A DNA stretch of 29,933 nucleotides from positions 1-29,933 of the IMG/VR virus record IMGVR_UViG_3300048839_000318, one strand, 5' to 3'. Under the pieces are notes generated by a model. The model did not search any database. It was not told the origin of the DNA and was given only the letters and a program-made list of their open reading frames with translations. Below are positions 20,507 to 29,933 of the stretch, one piece after another. Position 1 is the stretch's first letter. Each line of letters begins with the position of its first letter. This stretch comes from a virus. Both the position numbers and the translations under genes were made by a program.

Positions 20507-20947
20507 CTAATCTCTCAGAGGGATCCTGAGTTGCACCGCGACGAACGCCGGCGAGTCCCGCAGCGATAGTGGCTGCGCGATCAGCGCAGCCTCGAATCGC
20601 CGCCAGCGCAACACGACCTCCGGGAGCACCGCCGGCACGACCGAGTACCTATAGCCTGTCGCAGCCGCAGCGAGCAGCCCAACACTCCACGGCCCGGCCA
20701 TCTGCCATAGCCACTCTCGCGCCACGTACACCGACTGTCGATCGAGCGAGTTTCGGTACGTGCCCACGGCCCACCCCGACCACTCGCCGCGGTCTATCCG
20801 CACGCCGACCCCGACGTTGTCATCGCGATACTCGCCGCCACGGTGCCACGACCAGAACCCGCTCAGCAAAGTCTGCGAGTGCGCTGCGCTCCAGGCCAGC
20901 AGCAAAACCAGCGCGCACATCAACCGCGCAGAAGCTCGACTCGACAT
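20507..20947 (-). CDS. Secreted, probably outer-membrane beta-barrel protein
   Basis: The 146-residue product begins with a signal peptide (about 1-24, hydrophobic LMCALVLLLAWSAAHS, cleavage near Ser24-Gln25). The mature part alternates polar and hydrophobic residues in strands (GVGVRIDRGEWSGWAVGTY, RQSVYVAREWLW, FVAVQLRIPL at the C-terminus), consistent with a small eight-stranded barrel. GTYRNS-type sequence recalls barrel proteins that modify lipid A, but no catalytic set is proven. The gene overlaps the end of the tip gene by 28 bases. A role in host surface change or superinfection exclusion is an inference. Confidence 0.7.
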   Translation of the reverse strand: MSSRASARLMCALVLLLAWSAAHSQTLLSGFWSWHRGGEYRDDNVGVGVRIDRGEWSGWAVGTYRNSLDRQSVYVAREWLWQMAGPWSVGLLAAAATGYRYSVVPAVLPEVVLRWRRFEAALIAQPLSLRDSPAFVAVQLRIPLRD

Positions 20948-23451
20948 ACCGATTCAAGAATCACAACAGGGTCAAACGTCCAGCCGATCGGCACGTTCGG
21001 GTAGCTCAGCACTCTATAAACAGACCCGGCTTCTACGTCGCCAGCCATCTGTACCGTGACCGTTCCATATCGATCGTCCCCGGCGGACAGGCCGGTATCG
21101 TCGAAATACACCGTATTGTTCGCAGAGAACGCGGGCACGCCATTGATGCTCCCGCCGCTCCACGTCGTCCAAATGTCCAGCCCCGTCGCCGTTCCGGTGA
21201 ACGCGCCAAGATTACCTTGCGTTCCGCCGATCCACTTAACCAACGACGAGATTTGAACGATGTCGTGATCGTCGTTGATGACCGTCGTCACGCGCGTCGC
21301 CTTGATCGTGCATGTGACGGTCGCGACCATCCGGCCACTTACCGGCGCGACGAACCAGAACGCAAATACACGTTCGTTGAACGCAAGCGATGATAGGTCG
21401 ACGTTTGAGACCTGCCAGACAATGCTCCCGCCGACGCTACCGCTGGCGCCGGCGCTACCGTTGATCGGCGCATCCTGCGACACAACCACTTGCGAGACAG
21501 ACCACGTAGAGCGCACACCGATCCCGTTGATCGCGCGAACCAGCACGATCCACGTCTCCCCTCTCGACACGCCGTGCGCATCGAATGCCAACCGATTCGC
21601 AGGCACGGTCTCCTGCTGCCACGTCGTTGTATCGCTGCGTCGCCACCAGACCTCGACACGCTCGATCGACTCGTCCATTCGCTCCCAGTACACGCGGACG
21701 AACGGACGCTGTGAGCCATCGGACGACAGCGTGTAGAACGTCGCACCGGAGTCGAACGTGAGCACAGGCGCTGCGACCACCAGCGGGTTCGGCAGGTTCG
21801 TGTTCGGCGCGGGATCTGGCGTTACCAGCTCCGAGTAGCTCGACGAGTAGATCGCCTCGGCATCTTCCTGGAATACCGCCTGGATCGTGCCGGTCGCCGG
21901 CTGATACACGCGACGCAGGCACCGGAACGCCTTGGCGTTCCACCCGTAGCGAGCAATCGTCCACTCGACCATTGTTCCCGGCGTCACCGCGAACGCGCTC
22001 ATCTCGAGCGTGCAGGCGAACGTCAGCGCCTGTCGGGCCTTGTGCAGCATGAGCCGCGCGACCCGCTGCGCACGATGCACGTCGGAGATCATCGTCAGAT
22101 CGACATCGAGGATCTCCGTCTCGTCGTTGTCGAGTGCGACATAGCCCGGGCTCACGTACGTCGGGAACGAGTCCTCGACGAACTGGTTGGAATTCGCGTA
22201 GGTGTACCGGCCGCCGATGCCGTTGAACAGCGAACCGTCCTCGGCTACGCCCTGCACCGTGATCTCGCCCGGCGCAAGGTCGGATTCGTCGAGCGCAATG
22301 GTGGGTTCCTCCCACGCCCCGGCCCAGATGTACCAGACGCCAGCCGAGCGCACCGCCGAGCCGACCATCGACTGCAGGATGCGTTCCAGGCCGTCGACCG
22401 TGCTCGTGTCGCTGCTGATAACGTCGTCGAACGTGTAGCGGTCGTGCGTCACGACGCCAGAGATTGCGACGTCCTCGTCGCAGACGTTCGCCGCTGCGAT
22501 CAGGCTCGCAGAGTCGTATGTCTCGCCTGGGAAGCGCATGCTGATCCATTTCCACGCGATCAACGCCGGATTGCGCGTCCAGACCGTAGTGCTTGTTCTC
22601 GGGTCGTAGCACTTGATCCCGCGCACGACCGCAGTCACCTCCGGCACGCCGCTCGGGTACACGTCCGGGTGATAACCGAACGTCCCGGAAATGTAGGCCG
22701 TCCCAGTGAACTTGTCCGTCGCCGACCACACCGTCGGCAATTGTGCGACCAGGTACGGGTCGGCAGCCTGCCCGGACGCGCCGAGAAACGCTTTAGCTCT
22801 CGCTAGCGGCCTGCCGTCCGTGTACGTGTAGTTCACGACGAGGGTCTGGCCGACCCACGTCGTATTGAACGTCACCACCGTGACTGACGACACCGTCGCC
22901 ACCGAGAACGCCTGCTCGTCGCTGGCCGGCGTGCCGACGTGGAATACCTGCGGGTCCGTGTCGCCGGACGCTACCCCGCTGATCGACTGGATCGCATACG
23001 CCTCGTGCGCGAGCGTGATCGTTCCGCCGGCCGTCACAACAGCCTGTTTGTACGTCGGGATGCGGTTCGCCGAGTAGAACATCCCCTCGGTCGTCCAGCC
23101 GTCGGCGTCGAGCGTGCCGATCGGCGCATCGTTGAACCACACCGCTTCGACCGCGTCGATCTCGTCGCCGAGCGCGAGAGTCCAGTGCAGGTACTCGCTG
23201 TTTGCGCCGGACGACCCGAGGAACTGGATCTGTCCGCTGGTGCGCACACGGCCGAACAAATATGGCCGATCCGCAGTCGATTCGCGGACCATGACGAGCC
23301 GATCTTGGACCGACCGCTCGAGCGCCCGCTGCGCCTTCTTCCTCTGCTCGCGCGCCGTGTAGATGCCAACAATCATCGACGCGCCGGCCAGATACGCGGC
23401 GGTTGCGCCGGTCGTGAGCAGGCTGCCGACAGCCAGCGCGAAGCCCAGCAT
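20920..23451 (-). CDS. Tail tip / host-specificity protein (gpJ-like)
   Basis: This 843-residue protein is the likely tail tip and receptor-binding component. It starts at the ATG at 23451 in a TGATG overlap. The first 40 residues are hydrophobic (LGFALAVGSLLTTGATAAYL), a known feature of this group. The middle contains tip-type sequence (DRPYLFGRVRTSGQIQFLG, ALGDEIDAVEAVWFND, and a region near YDPRTSTTVWTRNPALIAWK). Residues about 640-740 look like a fibronectin III domain (FVRVYWERMDESIERVEVWW). The last 150 residues are the probable receptor-binding part. It is shorter than lambda gpJ (1132). Confidence 0.88.
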   Translation of the reverse strand: MLGFALAVGSLLTTGATAAYLAGASMIVGIYTAREQRKKAQRALERSVQDRLVMVRESTADRPYLFGRVRTSGQIQFLGSSGANSEYLHWTLALGDEIDAVEAVWFNDAPIGTLDADGWTTEGMFYSANRIPTYKQAVVTAGGTITLAHEAYAIQSISGVASGDTDPQVFHVGTPASDEQAFSVATVSSVTVVTFNTTWVGQTLVVNYTYTDGRPLARAKAFLGASGQAADPYLVAQLPTVWSATDKFTGTAYISGTFGYHPDVYPSGVPEVTAVVRGIKCYDPRTSTTVWTRNPALIAWKWISMRFPGETYDSASLIAAANVCDEDVAISGVVTHDRYTFDDVISSDTSTVDGLERILQSMVGSAVRSAGVWYIWAGAWEEPTIALDESDLAPGEITVQGVAEDGSLFNGIGGRYTYANSNQFVEDSFPTYVSPGYVALDNDETEILDVDLTMISDVHRAQRVARLMLHKARQALTFACTLEMSAFAVTPGTMVEWTIARYGWNAKAFRCLRRVYQPATGTIQAVFQEDAEAIYSSSYSELVTPDPAPNTNLPNPLVVAAPVLTFDSGATFYTLSSDGSQRPFVRVYWERMDESIERVEVWWRRSDTTTWQQETVPANRLAFDAHGVSRGETWIVLVRAINGIGVRSTWSVSQVVVSQDAPINGSAGASGSVGGSIVWQVSNVDLSSLAFNERVFAFWFVAPVSGRMVATVTCTIKATRVTTVINDDHDIVQISSLVKWIGGTQGNLGAFTGTATGLDIWTTWSGGSINGVPAFSANNTVYFDDTGLSAGDDRYGTVTVQMAGDVEAGSVYRVLSYPNVPIGWTFDPVVILESVCRVELLRG

Positions 23452-23717
23452 CAGACGATCCTCCACGCGCGCACGGCGTCGCTCATCGACAGCATCAGCC
23501 CGCTCGCCGGCACCGCATGCCGGCCGACACAGACAGCGAGCTGCCCACCCGCGAACTCGACCAGGTCGCCGCGCCGCGCCATGCGCCAGTCGATCTCGCC
23601 GCCGTGCCGGCCACCGCACTCTGTGAGCCACCCGGCGACCCACGCCGCGCCGCCGAGATCCTCGTCGCGAGCGCGAACGTATGCCGCCAGGCGCTCCGGC
23701 CAGTCCTCGCGCTTCAT
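23451..23717 (-). CDS. DUF6950-like tail protein, apparently missing its central part
   Basis: The 88-residue product starts at the ATG at 23717 in an ATGA overlap. It opens like DUF6950 proteins (KREDWPERLAAYVRAR) and ends like them (RRGDLVEFAGGQLAVCVG and MSDAVRAWRIV). The family normally has about 130 residues with an F-x-W-G-x-x-D-C motif soon after the N-terminus. That part, which carries the supposed catalytic Cys, is absent here, so an in-frame deletion is likely. Family members sit before the tip protein, as here, in the place of the NlpC/P60-type gpK. Confidence 0.65.
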   Translation of the reverse strand: MKREDWPERLAAYVRARDEDLGGAAWVAGWLTECGGRHGGEIDWRMARRGDLVEFAGGQLAVCVGRHAVPASGLMLSMSDAVRAWRIV

Positions 23718-24280
23718 AGGTAGCGCTTCATCAGTTCGCGGTTCGGCCACACGATCTGCTTTCCTTGGTTGTCTTTCACCCGCGAGAACGCCGTGTCGGT
23801 CGGGTCGATCTTTCGCTGATCGGCGTCCGAGAGCCGCCGCGGCTGCGACCGGCCCATGCGCTTGACCGCTGAGACGCAGTTGATGATGACCCGCGCCGAC
23901 CCGGTCGCCGAGTAGCCCGGGGCCGAGGCGCCAGCGGTCACGGTGACGACGATGCCGTCGCTATCGACACCCTCGCAGCTCGCGGTGATCGTCGTCGTGC
24001 CGGCGGCCAGAGCAGGCAACGGCACCGATACCCTGCCGTCGCTGCCGGTCGTCCCAGACGCCGGGTCGTCAATCGTCGCGTCGGTCGTCGACGCCCAGGT
24101 GACAGTCCGCCCGGCCAGCGCGTCACCGAACCCGTCTTCGACCAGCACCGTCGCCGTCGCCGTGTTGCCGACCTCGATCGATAGCGGCGTGATCGACAGC
24201 GTGACCGTGTCGACAGCACCAGCGAACGGACTGACCGGCTCGTCGCCGCTGCCGTCGAACGGAAGGAGCGTGTCGCTCAT
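23714..24280 (-). CDS. Ig-like (Big_1-type) domain fused to the C-terminal part of a tail hub-adaptor
   Basis: The 188-residue product has two parts. Residues about 23-120 are a Big_1-type Ig domain (TLSITPLSIEVGNTATATVL, then GRTVTWASTTDATI). Residues about 128-188 (GSARVIINCVSAVKRMGRSQ, RRLSDADQRKIDPTDTAFSR, QIVWPNREL) resemble the C-terminal end of DUF2163-like minor tail proteins, whose N-terminal half seems to lie at 27139-27534. The Ig domain thus appears joined to a tail-protein fragment after an insertion. It starts in an ATGA overlap at 24280. Whether the two halves associate is unknown. Confidence 0.7.
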   Translation of the reverse strand: MSDTLLPFDGSGDEPVSPFAGAVDTVTLSITPLSIEVGNTATATVLVEDGFGDALAGRTVTWASTTDATIDDPASGTTGSDGRVSVPLPALAAGTTTITASCEGVDSDGIVVTVTAGASAPGYSATGSARVIINCVSAVKRMGRSQPRRLSDADQRKIDPTDTAFSRVKDNQGKQIVWPNRELMKRYL

Positions 24281-25773
24281 GCCGCCGTCACCACCTGGGT
24301 GCCGTGAACCTTGCCGGCCGTCGTCATTGCAGAGCCGACGTTCTCGACGTGCACGAGCACCTTCTCGCCGCTGTACGCGGCGCTGATGCTGACCGTGAGC
24401 ACGCCTGATGCGTTCGTCGTCGCGGTGCCGCTGGCGAGGATCGTGTTGTCTGCGGACTTGACGATGTAGTCGAGCGGCTGGCTGGCGTATGCCGCACCGC
24501 TGAACACCCACGTCGAGCTCACCGTCGTCGTCCCGGACTGGGCCCCGGCAACAGTCACGGTCGCGGTCGCGTAGATGTTCGCGTCGGTCGACAACGCGGC
24601 CTTGACGACGGCGACCGTGTCGCTGGCCGGTGCCGTATACAGGCCATTTGAGGAGACGGTCCCAGAGCCGGACGTCACCGACCAGGTCCAGGTCGCCGTA
24701 TCGTCCCCGGATAGTGCTGCAACGAACTGCTGCGTCTGGCCCTGCGTGAGCGAGGCCGTCTGCGGACTGATCGTCGCCGCACTGCCGGCGTCAGTCACCG
24801 TGGCCGTGACGGTATTGGACACCACACCATCGAACGTCGCTGTCACCGCCGACTGTCCCGGAGCGACCCCGGTGATCCTGAGCGTCGATTGACCTGAGCT
24901 GTCGCTCGCAGCGAGCAGCGCGACCGTCGCGACTCCGGTATCGGCGGACGCAGCCGATCCGGTCAACCCGGCCAGCGCAGTGCTCGCCTGGTCCCGCACC
25001 GTCGCGGTCACGTCCGTGTAGTTGCCGGCCGGGACCGACGCGGTCGTCGATGCGATCGACACGCTATGCACCACCGGACAATCGGCCTCGCCACTGAGCG
25101 AGATCGTGCTGCTGCCGCCGGTTGGCGCAATCGCCACCAGTACGCCGACCGTCCGCGCAGCCCCGGCACTTGTCCTCGCAACAGTCCCGGTGACTGCGCC
25201 GCTCGACCCTGCACTGGCTTGCGTGATATCGGCGACGGTCAGCGCACGCGGATCGTAGGACGCACCAGAGTCGATCCGCTCCGTGTACGAAGCAGGAGCG
25301 GTAAACGACGGGGCATTGCCCGTCGTCGTGAACCGACCCGCCCCGAAGAACACGAGTTTGCTATCGTTGTCCGGGACCGTGATTGCACTGGCGTCTATGT
25401 CGTATGGCGTCGTGCTCCCGGCGTCTGCGGCGCTCGCCGTGCCGTACACCGACACATCCGAGCCGGACTGGTACGCGACAATTGCCGCACGACCGTTGAA
25501 GTCGTAGTCGAATACAAAGTCATAGGTCGCCGGTTCACTACCACCAGCGACCTTCTTGCACAGCCACGCACCTGTCGACGGCGCGCTGGTCGTCGTGGCG
25601 CTCGCGATCTGCGTCCAACCGGACGGCATGGTATTGAGAATCCGCGAACCGTCGTTGTTGACGAACCACGCGAGTAGAACATCGCCCGATGCGACGCTGG
25701 CCGGCTTGTCCAGCGTGACCGTCGCAAGCGTGTAGAACTCGTCGACAGTGTGTGAACGATAGGCCGCTGTCAT
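24277..25773 (-). CDS. Multi-domain Ig-like tail surface protein
   Basis: The 498-residue product begins at the ATG at 25773, one base after the stop of the glycosidase-like gene. Residues about 1-218 form a beta-sandwich pair (TLATVTLDKPASVASGDVLL, MPSGWTQIASAT, ARTVGVLVAIAP at its end) similar in plan to the protein at 1-826. Two Ig-like (Big) domains follow at about 230-330 and 330-415 (ISPQTASLTQGQTQQFVAAL), and a C-terminal beta domain at about 415-498. Such domains on virions are thought to bind weakly to cell-surface carbohydrates. No enzyme motif is present. Confidence 0.75.
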   Translation of the reverse strand: MTAAYRSHTVDEFYTLATVTLDKPASVASGDVLLAWFVNNDGSRILNTMPSGWTQIASATTTSAPSTGAWLCKKVAGGSEPATYDFVFDYDFNGRAAIVAYQSGSDVSVYGTASAADAGSTTPYDIDASAITVPDNDSKLVFFGAGRFTTTGNAPSFTAPASYTERIDSGASYDPRALTVADITQASAGSSGAVTGTVARTSAGAARTVGVLVAIAPTGGSSTISLSGEADCPVVHSVSIASTTASVPAGNYTDVTATVRDQASTALAGLTGSAASADTGVATVALLAASDSSGQSTLRITGVAPGQSAVTATFDGVVSNTVTATVTDAGSAATISPQTASLTQGQTQQFVAALSGDDTATWTWSVTSGSGTVSSNGLYTAPASDTVAVVKAALSTDANIYATATVTVAGAQSGTTTVSSTWVFSGAAYASQPLDYIVKSADNTILASGTATTNASGVLTVSISAAYSGEKVLVHVENVGSAMTTAGKVHGTQVVTAA

Positions 25774-25774
25774 G

Positions 25775-27142
25775 TCATGCCGCCGCGTTAGTTGGACGAT
25801 CCGAGTTCAGCACGCCACTGGTGCGCGTGACCTCGGCAATCACATCGTTGATCGTGAACGTCGCGTTCGATGCAGTGACCGGCTGCCAACCCATGAACTG
25901 AACGCCAATGTTCTGCGCGTTCTCGATCAACTGGCGCGGCGTTTCAGGCTGGAAGTAGGCAATCCACTCGATCAGTCCGTAGAAGTACGCCTCACCCGCA
26001 TAGCGGTCGAAAATGTACTTGCCGTAATCGTTCGCGTTGTACTTTGCGTATGTCGAGAGCGCGAGATCGTTCGGACACAACCCTGTCCGGTGAACCCGCA
26101 CCATCGTGTCGGTCATCCGGTAGTGCTCGGTCGTGTCGGAACTCGGCTCGTTCGACCAACCCATGTTGTTATGGAACAGCGCATTCCCGATGCCCGCAGC
26201 GCCCCGCCGCGACTGCTCGAGGAGAAACGCATTCATCGCCTGCCAGGTGTAGCCGGACTGCAACCAACCCCCGGATAGCTGGCATTCCTCGGTCGCCACG
26301 CCTTGCAGCGCCGGGTGATCGTTGATCTCCGCGAGGCAGGCATCCAGCATGTCCAGCCACGCCGACCCGCAACCCGACACCCACAGCTTTGGCCCTGCGA
26401 AATTCTGCCCGCCGCCGGTGTAGCTGTACGTCCAGCCTGCATTGACGATGTACGCGGGACAGAACGAACCGCGTGCGCTGCCGTGGAAGCTGCGGTTGTT
26501 CAGCCACACCCACATCTTTTTCCCGTCGGCCTCGGCTTTGTCGAGGTCGGCGGTAATGATCGAGAAGTCGTACACGCCCTGCGTAGACTCAAGCCGGTGC
26601 CACCAATAATGACCGTAGTAACCAGCCCAGTTTGAATCGTTCTTTACCCGGTTGCGATCCGTGTCCGACGTGATCCCCATGCGCGTCACCTCGTCGGTCA
26701 CGCGCAGGTAGTGGCCCGGATTCCACACCTTCCCGCTCGGTGCGGTGATGTCGCTCGGGTACTTGAGCTTGAACGATCCGGCAGCGAGATCCACACTCGT
26801 CGCAAACGCGCTCGGGATCGAGAACACACCGGACAGCACACCAGCGGTCGTGCGGAAAATCTCCACGTCTGCGCTTGTGGTGACGACCACGGTCGCCGGC
26901 GTTCCAGTGCCTGTCTGACTCCCGGTGAACGCCCCCGGAGTGATCGGGTAGTAATCCTGCGTCAGCGCCCCTTTCATCCAGGCTGCCGACGTGACCGTGC
27001 GAATGAGCGTGCCGCCTGAATCGTAGAACTTGAGCTTCGTTCCGGTCGTCAGCAGCGTAGCCAGTGCCGCCGCGCGATCCGATGCGCCACTCTCCGCGAG
27101 CACCGCCGTCCAATAGGCTGCGGCTGGCGTAAACGTCGTCAT
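25775..27142 (-). CDS. Tail-associated glycoside-hydrolase-like (TIM-barrel) protein
   Basis: The 455-residue product starts at the ATG at 27142 in an ATGA overlap. Residues about 1-135 are a small beta domain of phage tail type (FTPAAAYWTAVLAESGASDR, LKFYDSGGTLIRTV). Residues about 140-440 look like a beta/alpha barrel of the GH5/GH42-type superfamily: WWHRLESTQGVYDFSIITAD (180-199), KKMWVWLNNRSF (208-219), ATEECQLSGG (283-292, candidate acid/base Glu), IEWIAYFQPE (391-400, candidate nucleophile Glu392) and QFMGWQP (415-421). It may degrade host polysaccharide or be a catalytically dead sugar-binding version. Specific family is unresolved. Confidence 0.65.
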   Translation of the reverse strand: MTTFTPAAAYWTAVLAESGASDRAAALATLLTTGTKLKFYDSGGTLIRTVTSAAWMKGALTQDYYPITPGAFTGSQTGTGTPATVVVTTSADVEIFRTTAGVLSGVFSIPSAFATSVDLAAGSFKLKYPSDITAPSGKVWNPGHYLRVTDEVTRMGITSDTDRNRVKNDSNWAGYYGHYWWHRLESTQGVYDFSIITADLDKAEADGKKMWVWLNNRSFHGSARGSFCPAYIVNAGWTYSYTGGGQNFAGPKLWVSGCGSAWLDMLDACLAEINDHPALQGVATEECQLSGGWLQSGYTWQAMNAFLLEQSRRGAAGIGNALFHNNMGWSNEPSSDTTEHYRMTDTMVRVHRTGLCPNDLALSTYAKYNANDYGKYIFDRYAGEAYFYGLIEWIAYFQPETPRQLIENAQNIGVQFMGWQPVTASNATFTINDVIAEVTRTSGVLNSDRPTNAAA

Positions 27143-27534
27143 GCACTCACCCCGTCGATAACCGGCATCGTGTCGATCTGCAAATCCGCCTCGAGAATCG
27201 GCGTGCCCTCGATCGCGCCGGCTGCGTTGAAGAACGCCACCCAGACCCGCACGCGCCTGCCCTTGCCCTGCCCGCCCAACGCCAGCGCCACGAGCGACGC
27301 AGACCCGGCCAGCTCTAGCTGCAGCGCCGTCGACTGGATCTCCAGCGACTCCTCGATGTCGCTGATGCCGAGCAGCGTGCCGTCGCCGAGCCATGTCTTG
27401 CTGTCGTAGGTCACATTCCGGCCGGCCGTAGTCAGGTACATCGGCGTGTCGAAGTCGATCTGAATCAGCTCGCACTTCGTGACGCCTGCGGCGTCCGCTA
27501 GCGTCTGCTGGCCTGCTGTCAGTGAGCGCGCCAT
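27139..27534 (-). CDS. Tail hub-adaptor protein, N-terminal part (DUF2163-like, truncated)
   Basis: The 131-residue product has the pattern of DUF2163-like minor tail proteins: MARSLTAGQQTL at the start, IDFDTPMYLTTAGRNVTYDS, TWLGDGTLLGISDIEESLEI, LQLELAGSASLVALAL, then VRVWVAFFNAAGAI and EADLQIDTMPVIDG. The usual C-terminal 50-60 residues, with an RRxxxxDQ motif, are missing here. A matching stretch is at the end of the protein at 23714-24280. The gene ends at ATGA with the glycosidase-like gene, exactly where the split falls. It starts at the ATG at 27534. Confidence 0.75.
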   Translation of the reverse strand: MARSLTAGQQTLADAAGVTKCELIQIDFDTPMYLTTAGRNVTYDSKTWLGDGTLLGISDIEESLEIQSTALQLELAGSASLVALALGGQGKGRRVRVWVAFFNAAGAIEGTPILEADLQIDTMPVIDGVSA

Positions 27535-28151
27535 TACCAGGCCGGGGATTCGATGAGGGTGACGGGAAAGCTCGGCGCATGGGCCGAACGGTACGTGGCA
27601 GGAACAAACGATTCTTCCAGCCGGAACAACGCGGTCGGTTTGTCGACGACGACGGCGGCGCCGTTCGCAACCGCACCCACGAGCGGCGGGACGAACGAAA
27701 CGGCAGTCATCACGCCAGCGGCAGACGTGACATCAGCCACTACCTGCACGAGTTGCGTGGCTCCTGTGAGCGCGAGCGAGATCATGTCGCCGGCCAACAG
27801 GGTCAAGCCGGTCGTCGCCGTGATGTTCACGGTCGACGCACCCTCGGACGCACTGGCAGCGGTCGTCGTGTTTGCCTGCAACGTCCCGCGAGGCAGGGGC
27901 CGCGTATGGTGCCACAGGCTCACGACCTCGTCGGCATCGGACACCCGGTTCCAGAACGCCTCGATCTGCGCGCGATCGGCAAGGCTGTTGTTCGGATAGA
28001 TCAGCGTCGCGACCCAGAGCGCACCGACATGCTCGATGGTCGTGCGGCGCCTGGTCAGTGGGTTCCTGCGCTGCGTGAGGTTGCGCTGCAGGCCGAGCGA
28101 GAACTCCTCGACCATGAACGCCTGCGTGCTCGGGTAGGCGATCGTGCTCAT
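27534..28151 (-). CDS. Minor tail protein
   Basis: The 205-residue product starts at the ATG at 28151 (ATGA overlap with the tape measure gene). It begins AYPSTQAFMVEEFSLGLQRN and has a basic segment (RRNPLTRRRTTIEHVGALWV). A helix (DRAQIEAFWNRVSDADE) and a beta-rich C-terminal half follow (VNITATTGLTLLAGDMISLA). Its position right after the tape measure gene, before the hub-adaptor, fits a distal-tail or minor tail protein of lambda-like phages. No finer family is given. Confidence 0.78.
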   Translation of the reverse strand: MSTIAYPSTQAFMVEEFSLGLQRNLTQRRNPLTRRRTTIEHVGALWVATLIYPNNSLADRAQIEAFWNRVSDADEVVSLWHHTRPLPRGTLQANTTTAASASEGASTVNITATTGLTLLAGDMISLALTGATQLVQVVADVTSAAGVMTAVSFVPPLVGAVANGAAVVVDKPTALFRLEESFVPATYRSAHAPSFPVTLIESPAW

Positions 28152-29933
28152 GCCATCGCCCGCCTGCGGCTATCGGCCATCGTCGCGAGCGCGACATTGC
28201 GCATCATCACAGCGAGGCGCGCTTCCTGGCTGCGGCTCATCTCTCCGTTGATCGTGATGGTCGGCGCGACTGTCACGCCGCCCAACTGGTTGTTCGGAAC
28301 GATGTTGCCGCTCGCCAGCGGCATGAACACTTCCGGCCCTTTCTCGCCGACCATGTACGGCGTGCGGGCCGACACCGGGCCGCCAGATGCACGCATCGTG
28401 AGTCCGCCGCCGCCAAAGCGGCTCGCCAACCATCCGAGGCCGTCGCCGAGCCACCCGCTGATCTTGCCGTCCTTCGCGTAATCACCGAACAGCATTTTCG
28501 ACAGGTTCGCCGCCATCGCCTCGGCAGCCATGCGCTTGAGCATGTTGCCGAAGCTGCGGCCAATCGAGTCGAACTTACCGTCGAGGATGTCGTACAGGTT
28601 CTGGCCGAGCGCATCCTGAATGTTCCGAGCAGCTTCGCGCGCCCACTCGTCGGCCTCGCTCAACTTTTCCGGAACCCCGGTGGCGAGCTTCTTCATCTCG
28701 GCAGCCGTAGCGGCCGATATTCGGCCCAGCTCGCGCTGCTTCTCGATGTAGTCGACGATCCGAATGAACCGATCGGCCTCGGACTGCGCCGTATCGTCGA
28801 GCAGGCCCTGGTACTGTCTCTCGAGCGCAAGCTCCGCATCAACCGATGCGTTGACCTTCTGCGACGCCTCGAGCAGCCGCATCTCGGCCACATGCTGTTC
28901 GCCGATCGTCTTGACGCGGTTCCGTTCGATCTCCTCGGCGTCGGTTGCTGCCTGCAGCGCCTTCGCGGCGTCGATGAGCCGCTGTTTTTCGCCGTCGGAC
29001 AGCGTTTTGAATCGGCCTTTCGTGACTTCCCAGATTGCCTCCTCGACGATCTTGTTCTCGCCGAGCGCCGCCGCGCGCTTTTGCAACTGCGCGACCTCAT
29101 CGGCGAGTTGCTCGGCGGGCGTTTTCCCGCCGGTCGGATTGGTCGGGAACCGGGGTGTAGCACCAGTCGCCTCGCGCGGACCGAACAGCGACGACCGGAA
29201 CCCGGCCGGATGCTGTGCAGTCGCACGCGACTCGACCCTGCGCTGAATCGCGAGTAGCTTGTTCAGCTCGGCAGTCAGTTCGGCCTCGCTTTGGTTCGAG
29301 AACAGGCCGGTCCAGCGGCCGGACCTCTTGCCCTCTAACTTCTCGCGAACGCTGGCGATCTTCTCCTCGAGCGTGCCGAATCCCTTGATCGCGAGCGCGA
29401 CGTCGAGCGACTCGCCGAACGCCAATCCCTCTCGACGCGCATCGAGGAACCTGGCAGCGATCTCACCCAGCGACGCGATCAGCGGCGTAAAGGCATCCAT
29501 CAGAACGCCGCGCGTGGTCGCGCTCAGGCGCGTCAAGTTGTCGTTGAAGTCCTCGGCCGCCTTCGCTGTTTTCGAGTCGATGACGATCCCGAGACGCTCG
29601 GCTTCCTCGCGCATCTCCTGCAGGCCGTCGCGCCCCTGATTGAGCAGCGGAATGAGCTTCGCCCCGGCGCGACCGAATATCTCGATCGCGAACGCCGTTT
29701 TCTCCGGGCCGTCAGCGAACTCGGAGAATCGATCAGCGATGTCGCCAAGAACCTCCTCGGTCGGGCGCATCTGGCCCCCGGCTCCGAGCACGGAAACGCC
29801 GAGCGCCTTGAAGATCGCGACCGTTTCCTTCGACCCCTGAGCGACATCGCCCATCTTCGCGGTCAGGCGCGAGATGCCGGCGCCAAGCTCCTCGGTGGAG
29901 ACGTCCGAGAGCTTCGCCGCATAGTCCAGCGCA
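28148..29933 (-). CDS. Tail length tape measure protein, C-terminal part (runs off the right edge)
   Basis: An open leftward frame enters at 29932 and ends at 28148, giving 594 visible residues; the ATG at 29854 is internal, as the reading continues upstream (ALDYAAKLSDVSTEELGAGI). The conserved tape measure segment is visible (KTAFAIEIFGRAGAKLIPLL). It is followed by long helices (coiled coils around EKIASVREKLEGK and QLADEVAQLQKRAAALGENK). A Gly-rich C-terminus has FGGGGLTMRASGGPVSARTP and EKGPEVFMPLASG, typical for siphovirus tape measures. The protein sets tail length and is ejected with DNA. Confidence 0.9.
   Translation of the reverse strand, partial: ALDYAAKLSDVSTEELGAGISRLTAKMGDVAQGSKETVAIFKALGVSVLGAGGQMRPTEEVLGDIADRFSEFADGPEKTAFAIEIFGRAGAKLIPLLNQGRDGLQEMREEAERLGIVIDSKTAKAAEDFNDNLTRLSATTRGVLMDAFTPLIASLGEIAARFLDARREGLAFGESLDVALAIKGFGTLEEKIASVREKLEGKRSGRWTGLFSNQSEAELTAELNKLLAIQRRVESRATAQHPAGFRSSLFGPREATGATPRFPTNPTGGKTPAEQLADEVAQLQKRAAALGENKIVEEAIWEVTKGRFKTLSDGEKQRLIDAAKALQAATDAEEIERNRVKTIGEQHVAEMRLLEASQKVNASVDAELALERQYQGLLDDTAQSEADRFIRIVDYIEKQRELGRISAATAAEMKKLATGVPEKLSEADEWAREAARNIQDALGQNLYDILDGKFDSIGRSFGNMLKRMAAEAMAANLSKMLFGDYAKDGKISGWLGDGLGWLASRFGGGGLTMRASGGPVSARTPYMVGEKGPEVFMPLASGNIVPNNQLGGVTVAPTITINGEMSRSQEARLAVMMRNVALATMADSRRRAMA

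Follow-up and report, generated by a model that had tools for sequence, protein, structure and literature searches.

The locus described here raises the question of whether two genes lying ~2.9 kb apart are the halves of one tail-hub gene, which in its family is usually a single uninterrupted chain, and whether their products still form one tail part. The window (the whole stretch of DNA analysed, 29,933 nucleotides) comprises positions 1 to 29,933 of IMG/VR record IMGVR_UViG_3300048839_000318, an uncultured virus contig. On the minus strand, the genes for a tape measure protein (28148-29854; start beyond the contig end) and a distal tail protein (27534..28151; phrog_1302, 9.6e-22) are followed by the first piece of the hub gene (27139..27534) and by two genes of an intervening cassette, one glycosidase-like (25775..27142, 455 aa) and one multi-Ig (24277..25773, 498 aa). 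Beyond these lie the gene for an Ig-like domain joined to the second piece (23714-24280, 188 aa), a DUF6950 protein (23451..23717; PF22262, 2.4e-7) and a gpJ-like tail-tip protein (20920..23451; phrog_31, central tail fiber J, 3.2e-33; phrog_5616, 2.7e-77; Phage-tail_3, 3.2e-6), in which the remaining hub domains are expected. All neighbours from the tape measure to the gpJ-like gene overlap or nearly do so. The junction of the distal tail gene with the N half is TAATG, those of N half/glycosidase-like, multi-Ig/C and C/DUF6950 are each ATGA, with the ATG of the C protein at 24280 overlapping the multi-Ig stop, and the glycosidase-like and multi-Ig genes are separated by a gap of 1 nt (TGA-C-ATG). 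The first-pass annotation had reported these tight ATGA or near-ATGA couplings together with the ORF coordinates, and both were confirmed on the sequence. The contig L002 overlaps the end of the window at 99.93% identity, and the tape measure ORF there is 677 aa. The DUF6950 protein of the window is 88 aa only and aligns solely with model positions 71-134 of 134.

It had been proposed from the sequence that one tail gene is split at this locus, with its missing C-terminal part placed behind an Ig domain, and both proposals hold. The N piece is a 131-aa protein that terminates in ...IDTMPVIDGVSA*, whereas the second protein opens with a clear Big_1 Ig-like domain and linker (23909..24280; Big_1 5.5e-11 at residues 39-114) and continues into the C half (23714..23908, 64 aa), with GSARVIINCVSAVKRMGRSQPRRLSDADQ following the Ig domain and QIVWPN at the end. 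Against phrog_2048, the N piece matches positions 178-283 of 390 (3.4e-15) and the end of the C protein positions 302-360 of 390 (1.3e-7), in a register that adjoins the N-piece match. Alignment of the pieces against the family, as had been suggested, placed them in contiguous columns: when profiles of the pieces were compared with that of 11 uncut homologues (183-194 aa), the N piece corresponds to columns 1-132 (~residues 1-131 of the uncut family; 1.3e-19) and the C piece to columns 134-185 (3.8e-6), with no part of the family protein absent between them. The C half offers 64 aa only and a modest profile match, which at 17.6 bits against the uncut hub profile compares with a best of 6.2 among shuffles (n=2000). 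On the record of a relative, L004, the uncut-hub profile is likewise matched in two separate genes, at positions 1-133 and 133-184. These sequence comparisons confirm the N piece and the last ~60 residues of the C protein as halves of one ~184-aa tail-hub protein.

Uninterrupted homologues, whose presence in relatives had been proposed as a further check, were found at the same operon position. They include an IMG/VR locus (L007), the Roseobacter phages CRP-406, CRP-831, CRP-6 and CRP-811, the Pelagibacter phages HTVC202P and HTVC112P (annotated 'minor tail protein L'), and DSL-LC06, and the gene order around them is tape measure, distal tail, hub, DUF6950 and tail protein. Just downstream of the hub, the site of DUF6950 elsewhere, HTVC112P carries a gene annotated 'RTX toxin acyltransferase' (L021:1155-1541), and the gene just downstream of the DSL-LC06 hub is annotated 'glucosamine 6-phosphate N-acetyltransferase' (L019:4546-5031); both are possibly misannotated DUF6950 proteins. 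Among the loci collected, matches to the N half alone are confined to the clade of the window, a small group of uncultured siphoviruses (window/L002, L003 on an incomplete contig, L004 and L005). Sampling of genomes across the class yielded 11 hub matches: 10 cover nearly the whole profile, the partial match in G090 lies inside a longer continuous frame, and no split hub pair is among the 11. No match was returned by a nucleotide search of the region in phages, by tblastn of the N piece against phages, by the C-half protein as a single-sequence query in viral contigs, or by the N-piece profile in the genome contigs scanned, and tblastn of the C-half protein against phages gave one weak match, chiefly over the Ig domain. 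As the hub gene is interrupted here and uncut in all 92 full-length relatives collected, the cassette may have broken it in a recent accident, with one or both halves now decaying and another gene performing the hub function; the evidence that bears on this possibility comes from the relatives that share the split, and is given below.

The uncut family is identified by sequence and by predicted fold as the HDI, or attachment, domain seen in T5 pb3, lambda gpL and the RcGTA hub. The uncut profile finds residues 9-178 of the T5 baseplate hub protein pb3 by sequence (1.3e-8), and an AF2 model of the uncut L007 protein, a relative of the split pair, matches the folds of T5 pb3 (Z 15.7), the RcGTA hub (14.0) and lambda gpL (13.3). 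The pLDDT of this model is mostly 70-90 for residues 11-142 and weaker near 61-70, and the C-terminal arm from residue 143 is unreliable (pLDDT < 50). The label 'DUF2163-like' of the first-pass annotation is roughly right: the DUF2163-type family PF09931 (baseplate hub N-terminal attachment domain) matches 6 of the 11 uncut homologues with E values of 0.1 or lower, the best being 4.4e-7, although the N piece itself (0.0097, 16.5 bits) falls below the cut-off of 26. For what was named 'tail hub adaptor', HDI (attachment) domain of the tail-tip hub is the better description. The four lambda-type iron-sulfur cysteines of the C-terminal iron-binding domain are absent, with one cysteine per half.

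The L007 model places the cut (residues ~129-132) after predicted strand 114-128 and before predicted strand 133-142, in the turn of the last HDI beta-hairpin, so that the C half would bring the final strand of the HDI together with the C-terminal arm. The N half alone might instead be a truncated hub domain, with the C stretch serving only to anchor the Ig protein and the HDI fold left uncompleted; short gpL-like hubs are known, such as Sf11 BHUB1 with 156 aa (PMC12724387), and Jersey gp30 shows a severe truncation at its C-terminal end (PMC13243795). We consider this rather unlikely, as the Sf11 and Jersey truncations come after the HDI, whereas the cut in the window takes the last predicted HDI strand (133-142), and the strand lost from the N half is exactly that present in the C half, at equal constraint.

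The split is an old one, shared within the clade. L004 has the complete arrangement, with identities to the window of 78% for the N half, 75% for the C half and 66% for Ig plus C half, and in L005 the N half is followed by an unrelated gene and then by the contig end. The N half ends at the same point in three lineages and the C half follows an Ig domain in two, both halves being visible in these two lineages only and the other contigs ending too early. Relatives with the 131-residue protein and no C part had been named as a test of the split, and L004, the sole contig long enough, has the C part. In L004, the C-half protein opens with a short motif that occurs three times (VYWAEV, VSRVYWAEV and VSRAYWAEV; L004:9708-9830) ahead of its two Ig domains; the VYWAEV-type motif is absent from the window counterpart.

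By simple Nei-Gojobori counts with dS partly high, dN/dS between the window and L004 is 0.28 for the N half, 0.26 for the C half and 0.22 for the distal tail gene, compared with 0.59 for the shared domain of cassette gene 1 and 0.37 for the multi-Ig N-terminal domain (DUF6950 was left out of the comparison, its L004 frame probably being wrong). The N and C halves are under purifying selection. A recent accident followed by decay is improbable in light of these data: the split is common to lineages that are 67-78% identical in the N half, dN/dS is 0.26-0.32 for both halves, the frames are open and the start and stop codons overlap, and a search of the window's own record with the N piece found no second hub copy. 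The window being a contig from an uncultured virus, an assembly chimera or sequencing error also comes into consideration. The separate contig L002, which matches the window at 99.93% over 2,901 bases across the N-half/cassette junction, rules out an assembly artefact. The same architecture recurs in the independently assembled L004, L005 terminates its N half at the same place, and we give this explanation next to no weight.

Between the two halves, the similarity to relatives breaks off sharply. It ends in blastn just past the N-half stop, at 27132 against L004 and 27134 against L005. With L004 it picks up again at 24060, a position within the Ig domain that precedes the C half. In L004, a cassette protein of 413 aa is related to cassette protein 1 over its first 130 residues (38%) and unrelated over the remainder, and one of 345 aa is related to the multi-Ig protein over 225 residues (43%). 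Because the breakpoints are sharp, we infer that the cassette genes have been swapped between relatives through recombination; no long direct repeat pair was found at the two cassette junctions.

Cassette protein 1 consists of an N-terminal ~130-aa domain and a glycosidase-like domain, is itself matched by no Pfam, PHROG or NCBIfam family, and gives a poor AF2 model overall. Relatives of the glycosidase-like domain are ~350-aa proteins that occur in Pseudovibrio, Vibrio, Roseobacter, Planctomycetes and other bacteria. One of them, from Vibrio, has a GH42 match of 0.0041, below cut-off, and weak matches to GH35 structures, so that the domain may be a TIM-barrel glycosidase. The ~350-aa bacterial relatives (L109-L126) have a conserved GINLQE motif, and many of their N-termini resemble signal peptides. 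The ~130-aa adapter-like domain recurs in L015:6246-9230, where it is part of a 994-aa protein whose PcRGLX-like match is weak. L009-L012 and L015, which hold relatives of the cassette domains, yielded no hub match. The multi-Ig protein has a 225-aa N-terminal domain followed by Ig-like repeats, for which the Big_1 match is weak (0.016).

Since the halves adjoin with nothing absent between them, intron-like or intein-like splicing across the cassette could in principle join them. However, the insert is filled by coding frames, no Rfam intron match rises above threshold, neither cassette protein contains an intein or an endonuclease domain (HNH, GIY-YIG), and each half has its own start or stop overlapping the neighbouring genes, which would be needless if the halves were spliced; splicing is therefore very improbable.

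The reading that we favour, and consider likely, is a functional split hub whose halves reassemble without a covalent link and flank a recombining host-contact cassette. Both halves are kept by selection, and therefore one tail part is probably rebuilt from two chains, one with an extra Ig-like domain. Under this reading, a single ~184-aa hub gene between the distal tail and DUF6950/gpJ genes would have been cut in the turn of the last beta-hairpin. The N half would supply the beta-sandwich through the first hairpin strand, whereas the C half, a separate and translationally coupled chain with the Ig-like domain at its N-terminus, would supply the second strand of the hairpin together with the C-terminal arm. 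Selection on both halves and the position of the cut point to a non-covalent reassembly of the two chains in the hub ring. The lambda hub contains gpL and gpJ in three copies each, and by homology with known hubs three Ig domains may be displayed per tip. The genes between the halves would encode surface-acting proteins that are exchanged by recombination, with a conserved half of the hub gene on either side, and the cassette proteins may be present in the virion, docked and acting at the cell surface.

The first-pass annotation had envisaged a split, complementing tail component that docks enzymes. The split and complementing component is the best reading, with both halves conserved and under purifying selection and with uncut homologues in relatives, whereas the docking of enzymes is conjectural. 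A more specific proposal, which we put forward tentatively and with more doubt than conviction, is that the cut in the HDI hairpin has evolved as a docking port, in which three two-chain hub domains per virion point their Ig domains outward, the cassette proteins attach to these, and enzymes are swapped by recombination within the conserved hub halves. Were this so, surface enzymes could be changed while the tail core stays undisturbed. The usual view of tail-tip hubs is of a conserved, rigid core whose variation comes from added domains or from division between domains; here, the division runs through a core beta-sandwich that is apparently still maintained, and the gap holds swappable surface-protein genes. 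If the chains do reassemble, the locus would represent a split-protein scaffold that evolved naturally at the tail tip, and would offer a testable idea of how siphoviruses change surface-acting modules by recombination.

Both gene splitting and Ig-decorated hubs are already known. An HDI beta-sandwich cut around a surface-protein cassette was not found in the literature, in a search that covered few subscription journals and is weak evidence of novelty. In T4-like genes-in-pieces, nrdA of Aeh1 is split by mobE, gene 60/39 is split by mobA, and gene 43 is also split (PMC2988022); the products of such split phage genes reassemble (PMC2988022; Friedrich et al. 2007 as cited there). The window resembles these systems in that a contiguous phage gene is split by inserted DNA. 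There, however, an enzyme gene is interrupted by a homing endonuclease or by intercistronic sequence, whereas the window has variable surface-protein genes in a structural gene, and one of its halves has gained a domain, unlike the T4-like cases.

Extra surface-type domains on a tail-tip core protein are a second point of likeness, shared with the 'evolved Dits', distal-tail proteins with inserted carbohydrate-binding domains (PMC10688798), with the R4C hub, where an oligosaccharide-binding domain is inserted at 162-243 (PMC10276861), and with FNIII-A of lambda gpJ (PMC10721106). These are insertions within a chain, whereas the core protein of the window is encoded by two genes around a multi-gene cassette. 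In JBD30, the upper baseplate protein and the distal tail protein form the attachment site of the side fibres (PMC11445458), and gp47/gp48 are enzyme-like side appendages at the same hub region where the window proteins may dock. The JBD30 side-fibre genes are, however, encoded outside an intact upper baseplate gene, unlike the window cassette.

A hypervariable focus has been described where the hub chain is divided (PMC13243795). The hub domains of T5 are all in one chain (PMC10721106, PMC10038345), whereas those of lambda are spread over several, gpL, gpI and gpJ; the last tail ring of lambda is built by the gpL HDI and gpJ, with the C-terminal domain of gpL placed on the outer surface (PMC10721106). 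The family of the window hub is like siphophage hubs in the sequence (T5 pb3) and predicted fold (Z 13-16) of its uncut relatives, and in its operon position between distal tail protein and gpJ. In known hubs the divisions run from one domain to the next (PMC10721106), whereas the window hub is cut inside the HDI, as predicted from the model, and bears an Ig domain on its second half.
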